From positions 2,727,836-2,791,835 of the forward strand of contig NZ_CP065856.1 in the NCBI RefSeq assembly GCF_016065055.1: a DNA stretch of 64,000 nucleotides, written 5' to 3'. The position numbers and the translations under genes are program-made. Position 1 is the stretch's first letter. The number at the start of each line of letters is the position of its first letter. The DNA is from Halosimplex litoreum (GTDB taxonomy: Archaea; Halobacteriota; Halobacteria; Halobacteriales; Haloarculaceae). Shown here piece by piece: positions 24,806 through 50,342 of the stretch. The notes beneath the pieces were generated by a model. It did not search any database, had not been told where the DNA came from, and saw nothing but the letters and a program-made list of their open reading frames with translations.

Positions 24806-26716
24806 ATGGATCCCGACGCGGTCCGGGACCGAGCCGGCGAGTTGCCCGCCGAGCCCGGCGTCTACCAGTTCCTCGCCCGCGAATCGCGCGGCCGAGCGAA
24901 GCGAGGCCACGGAACTGACGAGCGGCGAAGCCGCGAGTCCCGCGGGTCGGGCGTGGCCGACGGTGACGGCGGCGATCCGGCCGACGCCGAGTCCGTCGGA
25001 GCCGACGCCGACCTCGCCGAGACGGACTCCTACGAACGGGTCCTCTACGTCGGGAAAGCGGTGAACCTGCGGAGTCGCGTGCGGTCGTACGCCGACCCGC
25101 GCAGCGAGCGCATCCGGCGGATGGTCGCCGCGGCCGAGTCCGTCGAGGTGGCGGTCACCGACACGGAGACCCAGGCCCTCCTCCTCGAAGCGAACCTGAT
25201 CAAACGGCATCGGCCGCGGTACAACGTCCGGCTGAAAGACGACAAGTCCTACCCGCTGGTCCAGCTGACCGCTCACGAGTTTCCCCGGATCGAGATCACC
25301 CGCGACCCCGCTCCGGGCGCGACCGTCTTCGGCCCGTTCACCGACAAGGGCCGCCTGGAGACCGTGGTCAAGGCCGTCCGCGAGACCTACGGCCTGCGGG
25401 GCTGTTCGGACCACAAGTTCGAAAACCGCGACCGGCCGTGTCTCGACCACGACATCGGCCTCTGTTCGGGTCCCTGCGTCCCCGAGACCGACGTGGACGG
25501 CGAGGCCTACGTGGGCGACGCCGAGGCGGTCGAGCGGTTCTTCGAGGGGGAGACGGGGGCGCTGGCGGACCCGATCCGCCGCGAGATGGAGGCCGCGGCG
25601 GGCGACCGGGAGTTCGAGCGGGCGGCGAACTGCCGCGACCGGCTGGACGCGGTCGAAGCGATCCACGGCGAGGCCGGCGACGCGGTGGCGAACGAGGGCC
25701 GCCACGAGGACGCCGAGCGCGAGCGGGCGGTGGACGTGCTCGGCGTCGCCGTCGAGGGCGAGACCGCGACGGTCGCGCGCCTGCACAGCGAGGACGGCAA
25801 GCTTGTCGACCGCGAGCGCCACACGCTCGACGCGCCGGCGGGCGAACGCGCCGGTGCGGTGTTGGCGGCCTTTATCACCCAGTTCTACGCCGAGCGCGAG
25901 CTGCCCGACGCCGTCCTCTGTTCGGACCACCCCGACGACGCCGACCTGGAGGCGTGGCTGGAGCGGGAGGGCGTCGCCCTGCGGGTGCCCGGTGCCGGCC
26001 GCGAGGCGACGCTGGTCGACTTGGCGCTGAAGAACGCCCGCCGCCGGGACCGAAGGGACGACGAGGGGCGGGCGCTGGCCGACGCGCTCGGTCTGGACTC
26101 GCGGGTCGAGCGGATCGAGGGCTTCGACGTGAGCCACGCCCAGGGACGGTCGGCGGTCGGCAGCGACGTGACCGTCGTCGACGGCGAACCCGCGAAGGCC
26201 GACTACCGACGGAAGAAGCTGACCGACGAGAACGACGACTACGCGAACATGCGGTCGCTGGTTCGGTGGCGCGCCGACCGCGCCGTGGACGGCCGTGACG
26301 ACCGGCCCGACCCCGACCTGCTGCTCATCGACGGCGGTGAGGGCCAACTGGGCGCTGCGCGCGACGCGCTCGCGGCCGCGGGCTGGGACGTGCCCGCGAT
26401 CGCCCTCGCCAAAGACGAGGAACTGGTCGTGACTCCCACAGGGGTGTACGACTGGCCGGACGACGCCGGCCACCTGCATCTCCTCCAGCGCGCCCGCGAC
26501 GAGGCCCACCGCTTCGCCGTCCAGTACCACCAGACCCTTCGGGACGACGTCTCCACCGTGCTGGACGACATCGACGGCGTGGGCCCCGAGACGCGCAAGC
26601 GGCTCCTCCGGCGGTTCGGCAGCATCGAGAACGTCCGGTCGGCCTCCCGCGAGGAACTGGAGCGCGTCGACGGCGTCGGGGCCAAGACCGCCGGGACGCT
26701 CGCCGAGCGGCTGTGA
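24806..26716 (+). CDS. uvrC: Excinuclease ABC subunit C with an N-terminal insertion
   Basis: Endonuclease that cuts both sides of UvrB-marked DNA damage. 636 residues: GIY-YIG domain (GVYQFL, then [33 protein letters not shown]), Cys-containing region, UVR motif ([20 protein letters not shown]), RNase H-like endonuclease domain ([32 protein letters not shown]) and C-terminal HhH pair. About 55 residues (24-78; 24875-25039), charged and low-complexity, split the GIY part (GVYQFL) from VLYVGKA. UvrC normally has only a few residues there. The DNA in the insert carries palindromes. ATG 24806 is the start. Confidence 0.95.
24880..24960 (+). repeat. Palindromic element inside uvrC
   Basis: The segment holds a perfect hairpin GCGGC-GAA-GCCGC (24922-24934) and a GGCCGAGCGAAGCGAGGCC inverted repeat just before it. 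The same GAGCGAAGCGAG core occurs upstream of uvrB. It coincides with the start of the extra residues in the GIY-YIG domain. Confidence 0.6.
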
Positions 26717-44033: not shown

Positions 44034-44184
44034 GCGTGGTCCGAACGCAGTGAGGACCACGCAATTGCGAGCGGGGAACGAAGTGACCCGCGAGCAGCGA
44101 GGCGCGAGCGAAGCGAGCGCCTCGGAAACGCGAACGGGCGCGAAGCGCCCGTGAGCGACGGGCGGACCACGCAATTGCGAGCGG
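44034..44184. repeat. Cluster of palindromes with a 21-base direct repeat upstream of uvrB
   Basis: Contains GGACCACGCAATTGCGAGCGG at 44054-44074 and again at 44164-44184 (110-base spacing). Inverted repeats: CGTGGTCC/GGACCACG (44035-44061), AGGCGC/GCGCCT (44100-44122) and CGGGCGC-GAA-GCGCCCG (44135-44151). Gap 44002-44249 has no gene. The cores share the GAGCGAAGCGAG theme with the uvrC insert. Confidence 0.75.
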
Positions 44185-50245: not shown

Positions 50246-50342
50246 CTTTTTCCCACCCGGGTTTCCTCGGTCGCTGCGCTCCCTGCGGAGAACCCGGGGC
50301 AAAAACGTGGGTGAAAAAGCGCCTCCGCCGTCTTCGACGGCG
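50246..50342 (-). terminator. Terminator-like hairpins and T tracts after dph6
   Basis: The minus strand leaving dph6 meets a hairpin CGCCGTC-TTC-GACGGCG (50326-50342) followed by T5 runs (GCTTTTTC, then CGTTTTTG), and then the arms AACCCGGG/CCCGGGTT (50256-50263 and 50291-50298). Archaeal termination at T tracts would stop the dph6 transcript here. The whole gap 50183-50378 has no gene. Confidence 0.55.

Follow-up and report, generated by a model that had tools for sequence, protein, structure and literature searches.

Palindromes in the uvrC gene of Halosimplex litoreum as a probable copy of a dispersed haloarchaeal hairpin repeat

Known hairpin repeats and the insertion in uvrC

Bacterial hairpin repeats of the REP/BIME/REPIN type carry GTAG and CGTC tags (PMC3733652, PMC2817692, PMC3116915), and REPs are also found in frame within genes, with the excision-repair genes uvrA and uvrB among their hosts (PMC3733652). 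Rickettsia palindromic elements (RPEs) measure about 150 bp and lie in frame in unrelated protein genes, where they are tolerated as extra segments (PMC10969869). In Haloquadratum, PATEs, MITEs and small mobile repeats are transposase-free, and the PATEs have near-terminal palindromes (PMC3119063). At the level of DNA chemistry, d(GCGNAGC) was described as an extraordinarily stable minihairpin, GAA being more stable than GTA (Hirao 1994; Yoshizawa 1997; both as cited in PMC6479982). Here, we analysed a stretch of 64,000 nucleotides of H. litoreum (contig NZ_CP065856.1, positions 2,727,836 to 2,791,835; called the window, the numbering of which is used below) containing a uvrC gene with a palindromic insertion.

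The gene (24806-26716, + strand) encodes 636 amino acids in an intact frame. A preliminary description of this DNA had placed an in-frame insertion of 55 codons at 24875-25039 (+), which proved exact: codons 24-78, flanked by GVYQFL and VLYVGKA, occupy the β1-β2 turn of the GIY-YIG domain. In most UvrC proteins of haloarchaea, only about 5 residues stand at this place. Pfam searches detected the split GIY-YIG, the UVR, both UvrC RNase H-like and the HHH domains, and the domain set was normal except that the GIY-YIG profile matched only from its position 14, past the loop. The earlier statement that the insertion separates the two core strands of GIY-YIG is in line with these matches, the rest of UvrC being intact. 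The tyrosines Y20 (in GVY) and Y81 (in LYVG) were invariant. Modelling of the fold with the loop, proposed earlier as a check, yielded strands at residues 18-25 and 76-83 separated by coil (AlphaFold2); only these strand positions were taken from the model because confidence in the GIY-YIG domain was low (pLDDT 33-50). UvrC would be expected to keep working with the loop.

The spacer between YQF and (V/T)LYVG was measurable in 49 haloarchaeal loci and was mostly 5-9 residues long, 13 in one locus and 23-58 in eight; the long form was restricted to the Halosimplex clade and three other lineages (L060, L068 and L072). A long linker was present in 8/8 Halosimplex genomes, with a sequence varying among species. 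In H. litoreum, this hypervariable acidic linker corresponds to 24940-25039 (+), and the palindromes to a two-hairpin repeat copy at 24877-24939 (+), which among Halosimplex was found only in H. litoreum itself and in H. carlsbadense (genome G120; loci L031/L194). We read the insertion as two layers, a genus-old hypervariable linker and a younger palindromic element within it. Because the linker hosting the repeat copy also exists without it, uvrC offers no cleanly empty site for comparison. The preliminary description had suspected the insertion of an element, to be checked by its strain-specificity, and had taken the same insertion with different DNA in most haloarchaea as the mark of an old protein feature. 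As the linker occurs in all eight Halosimplex genomes, the outcome is twofold: strain-specificity does not hold for the linker, an old protein feature of ordinary, variable acidic sequence, but the younger palindromic element, confined to the two species, is traced to a dispersed element. An independent long linker was observed at the same site in the uvrC of Halobacterium TGN-42-S1 (L060, 3001-3300). It contains 13 nt identical to the short hairpin of the element, in another reading frame (p 0.0025 by codon shuffling, the linker being one of eight that were compared), which is suggestive and is not counted as proof.

Hairpin 1 of the uvrC copy (24887-24911, +; long type) reads CGCGGCC-GA-GC-GAA-GC-GA-GGCCACG, with one C/A mismatch in the arms. 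Its inner part, GGCC-GA-GC-GAA-GC-GA-GGCC at 24890-24908, from which the arms extend to 24887-24911, is the GGCC-arm hairpin previously described as perfect; it is present and imperfect because of its GA/GA mismatches. The core of hairpin 2 (24917-24939, +; short type; GAC-GA-GCGGC-GAA-GCCGC-GA-GTC) is the perfect hairpin GCGGC-GAA-GCCGC at 24922-24934, just as first noted. In H. carlsbadense, hairpin 1 has perfect arms and the loop AAA instead of GAA; loop and second hairpin of that copy are damaged, and a comparison of the two species shows partial degradation of the cap, the arms and the second hairpin. The local fold energy was ordinary (z -0.24 for 24870-24945; z -2.1 for 24916-24942 alone), and the palindromes are more than chance because they are members of a family, not because of their plain fold. 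When the insertion was searched against the own genome, 24877-24929 matched an intergenic copy (L002) with 87% identity over 53 nt (E 1.6e-11); further partial copies were returned, two of them within the genes of Trm1 and of an enoyl-CoA hydratase. The uvrC copy was also matched by a covariance model (E 1e-3, whole own genome searched) and has the same layout as 12 other units. These matches make it very probable that it belongs to the hairpin family.

Structure and distribution of the hairpin family

At sites with GAGCGNAGCGAG, the flanks were often inverted repeats of differing sequence. The hairpins of the repeat form a directional pair, in which variable but complementary arms enclose tandem GA/GA mismatches and a short stem that ends in a GNA triloop. 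Each unit runs from a long hairpin (an arm of mostly 6-9 bp, then GA, 2 bp, the GNA loop, 2 bp, GA and the second arm) over a spacer of 4-11 nt to a short hairpin, GARC-GGS-(cap or loop)-SCC-GYGAG; 13 units including the uvrC copy share this one layout, with a unit length of about 50-60 nt. Sheared tandem GA pairs are stable. The GNA loop is closed by C-G as in d(GCGNAGC), with GAA the commonest loop and GTA the rarest; unlike in those test-tube oligonucleotides, the cap is here the constant part of a genomic repeat.

Hairpins were counted by the shape arm(5)-2 nt-2 bp-3 nt-2 bp-2 nt-arm with arms of at least 5 bp. Those with GA/GA and GNA numbered 20 in 800 kb of unbiased own sequence versus 0 in Markov-3 and Markov-4 simulations, and 2, 5 and 12 in three other genomes (three families, 400 kb each), with 0 in the simulations. 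Pooled over the four genomes, 39 GA-GNA-GA hairpins in 2.0 Mb stand against 0 simulated, and alternative control caps gave 0-4. Beyond the unbiased 800 kb, the own sequence analysed also took in short pieces surrounding individual sites. Arm covariation is partly built in because matches were chosen for paired arms; the independent evidence lies in the letters of the cap and in the excess over simulated sequence. Of 63 own copies, 58 were intergenic (gene calls for this and for the orientation counts came from a home-made predictor), the loops were GAA in 32, GGA in 19, GCA in 10 and GTA in 2, so that all four GNA loops were seen, and the cap stems included GC/GC, AC/GT, CC/GG, GT/AC and CT/AG. 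Neighbouring hairpins at most 80 bp apart lay on the same strand in 45/45 cases, mostly spaced by 28-33 or 40 bp. No replication-strand bias of the hairpins was seen (runs test z -1.1), and Rfam matched only a tRNA in nine loci holding hairpins or the hairpin cap.

A covariance model built on the 27-nt hairpin was used to count copies at E<=0.01. The own genome (4.16 Mb) contains 108 hairpins, and the other Halosimplex genomes 101 (G119), 57 (G120), 11 (G121), 4 (G122), 101 (G123) and 105 (G124). Of the 22 Halobacteriales genomes in a sample drawn evenly from the phylum, 20 were positive, with 3-52 copies each among the matches listed; genomes of the phylum outside Halobacteriales gave 0-7 weak matches among the matches listed. 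G122 and G123 are sister species with 4 versus 101 hairpins, yet their uvrC linkers are nearly identical. This swing is a mass gain or loss and offers the most promising clue to the mechanism.

The family resembles REP/BIME/REPIN in that its short hairpins, numbering about 100 per genome, are grouped in pairs and arrays and lie mostly between genes, with some in frame within genes. It differs from REPs in having no GTAG/CGTC tag at the hairpin feet (by inspection, the 13 units start with CGWGG-like or other arms and end in GYGAG), in lacking a link to Y1/RAYT genes, in combining variable but complementary arms with a fixed GA-GNA cap, and in its archaeal host. Its pairs are direct, in contrast to the inverted pairs of REPINs. 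In-frame insertions demonstrated by empty orthologues (enoyl-CoA hydratase, Trm1, isochorismatase) are shared with RPEs, which are conserved in sequence; the present units are 54-57 nt long, conserved in structure and variable in their arms, and are set apart by size and arm variability. Like the Haloquadratum repeats they are small, transposase-free and haloarchaeal, but the ends of PATEs and MITEs (IS605- or transposon-related, or inverted terminal repeats) were not recognised in an unsystematic look. The family is set apart from REPs and RPEs because the tests of tag, pair orientation, transposase link and size failed, and we regard it, by analogy, as acting like REP/RPE while differing as an archaeal variant. 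Within the literature that could be searched, from which many subscription papers are absent, no archaeal account of the hairpin turned up, and the family is apparently undescribed in archaea.

Gains and losses at orthologous sites

A dense intergenic array in the window (44034-44155, +) consists of two long and two short hairpins: GCGTGGTCC-GAACGCAGTGA-GGACCACGC (long, 44034-44062), GCGGG-GAACGAAGTGA-CCCGC (short, 44071-44091), CGAGGCGC-GAGCGAAGCGA-GCGCCTCG (long, 44098-44124) and GAAC-GGGCGC-GAA-GCGCCC-GTGAG (short, 44132-44155), the last with the design of uvrC hairpin 2. The array is orthologous in three other Halosimplex genomes. Within 44034-44124, the own genome and G124 have the cap stem AC/GT and G120 has CC/GG; G125 shows T-A in place of an arm pair G-C. 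As read from the aligned letters, this is compensatory change at a fixed orthologous site. Several further repeats were observed. The motif GGGCTTTCACGCTGT (6 matches in 800 kb; own-genome loci L113, L118 and L143) is found between genes on both strands, as pairs with a spacing of about 100-280 bp, and frequently lies close to the cap sequence of the hairpins. The dispersed motif CTTTTTCNCCCANGTTTTT (7 in 800 kb; window position 50301, - strand, and loci L129, L135, L136, L140 and L141) often lies just 3' of hairpin caps and is possibly a terminator-like or repeat boundary sequence. At L188 (1631-2377; own genome C1:3611687-3612377), a 166-bp unit is repeated five times in tandem with one GA-GNA hairpin in each.

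Alignment of orthologous genes showed in-frame gain or loss of 54-57-nt units within several Halosimplex genes. The enoyl-CoA hydratase gene is longer by 57 nt in the own genome and G123 and has a remodelled version in G124; the site is empty in G119, G121, G122 and G125, where both flanks align cleanly. The Trm1 gene carries an additional 57 nt in the own genome and 54 nt in G124 and is empty in the other Halosimplex genomes, at a slightly less clean site. For isochorismatase, again a clean site, 54 nt (own) and 57 nt (G120) are added, and G123 is empty. Near the N-terminus of ScpA, one to several units were found in the own genome, G122, G123 and G124, and none in G121. In this N-terminal tail (L282-L288), the number of units varies by Halosimplex species, a hot spot of growth. 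Direct repeats at the insertion ends, such as GAGGGCGAG in the enoyl-CoA hydratase gene of G123, were not uniform across sites and are suggestive only.

Proposed origin and alternative explanations

As far as sequence comparison reaches, it is shown that the family is real, that its fold is kept while the letters change, that it lies mostly between genes and that it turns over between species. Our best explanation of the uvrC palindromes, which we consider probable, is that they are a copy of this dispersed, directional haloarchaeal repeat, tolerated in UvrC. Related hairpins are scattered genome-wide and across haloarchaea, and for this reason the copy is seen as tolerated repeat DNA and not as a change made for UvrC; it is likely to be a tolerated passenger, a view favoured by its partial degradation between the two species that share it and by the presence of a linker in every Halosimplex genome. 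The element would act as single-stranded DNA in which a GNA minihairpin stacks on the sheared GA pairs, and further copies would arise through an activity recognising the hairpin. Such recognition on single-stranded DNA is suggested by the absence of strand preference together with the retention of mismatches that template copying would remove, and we propose it tentatively, as somewhat less than an even chance, as the way in which the repeat spreads. In-gene copies would survive only when they preserve the frame, are hydrophilic and lie in a loose loop. The uvrC copy may have entered a tolerated loop, or given rise to one, at the turn joining the two strands of GIY-YIG; there it would be translated as a charged and probably disordered loop, and it may now be decaying.

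Alternatively, the hairpins might act in RNA, with effects on mRNA stability, on termination or on translational pausing, and the copy in uvrC might regulate expression of that gene. An action partly at the RNA level is assumed for bacterial REPs (PMC3733652), a slight surplus of hairpins was seen in gaps between 3'-facing genes (16 versus 6), and of the copies in predicted genes 8/8 were in sense orientation, one of them probably by chance. The sense bias is, however, sufficiently explained if the host protein has to survive: charged or small residues are encoded in the sense frames (RAKR/ERSE/SEAS), more hydrophobic ones in the antisense frames (ARFA/LASL/SLRS). In gaps between co-directional genes, the hairpins showed no strand preference (17 versus 17), and no Rfam family was matched. 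From the known chemistry and this absent orientation bias we infer an action as DNA rather than RNA, and consider the RNA role improbable.

Slightly less probable still is that the hairpins were made in place by fold-back template switching, one arm being host sequence and the other its copy. In favour of this, the left arm GAGGGC(GAG) of the enoyl-CoA hydratase unit can already be read at the empty site, and G124 has a remodelled left arm, GAGGCGC, that is likewise host-like. Yet the Trm1 left arm is absent from the empty sites, the whole unit with its second hairpin arrives each time, and the GA/GA mismatch is retained everywhere, where copying would give GA/TC.

A classic REP moved by a Y1/IS200-type transposase (RAYT) would account for hairpin repeats of similar size in pairs and arrays, and a Y1 gene (PF01797) was detected in 18 of the 26 haloarchaea tested. 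Its presence does not follow the hairpins: seven positive Halobacteriales (G094, G038, G044, G059, G069, G089 and G112) and G119, with its 101 hairpins, had no Y1 match; G084 (10 matches, most broken with stop codons) and G116 (3) had no hairpins; and G122 and G123 have 2 matches each despite their 4 versus 101 hairpins. Together with the direct orientation of the pairs, this makes the reading very unlikely, and Y1 transposase was rejected as the driver. Equally unlikely is that the insertion is merely a genus-specific acidic linker made by slippage in GC-rich DNA with palindromes by chance, a reading that fits the differing linker DNA of every Halosimplex species and the unremarkable fold energy and stands for 24940-25039, but is largely refuted for 24877-24939 by the 87% identical intergenic copy, the two-hairpin layout common to 12 other units and the lack of such hairpins in simulated sequence.

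For the tolerated repeat copy that we favour, no activity moving the repeat was found, Y1 transposase genes not tracking the hairpins. A bolder form, in which an undescribed mobile DNA is recognised by shape (GNA minihairpin, tandem GA), is moved by a non-Y1 activity in bursts and purges between sister species and seeds in-frame segments, including the same uvrC site in more than one genus, is in our view rather unlikely.

If the explanation holds, archaea would own a counterpart to REPs and Rickettsia palindromic elements, built on a chemically known stable hairpin, and odd charged peptides in haloarchaeal proteins (ERSE, RAKR, GSEAT) would have a simple origin. The pair G122 and G123 provides a natural experiment for the factor that spreads or removes the repeat, and the in-frame copies show repeat DNA adding loops to essential proteins.
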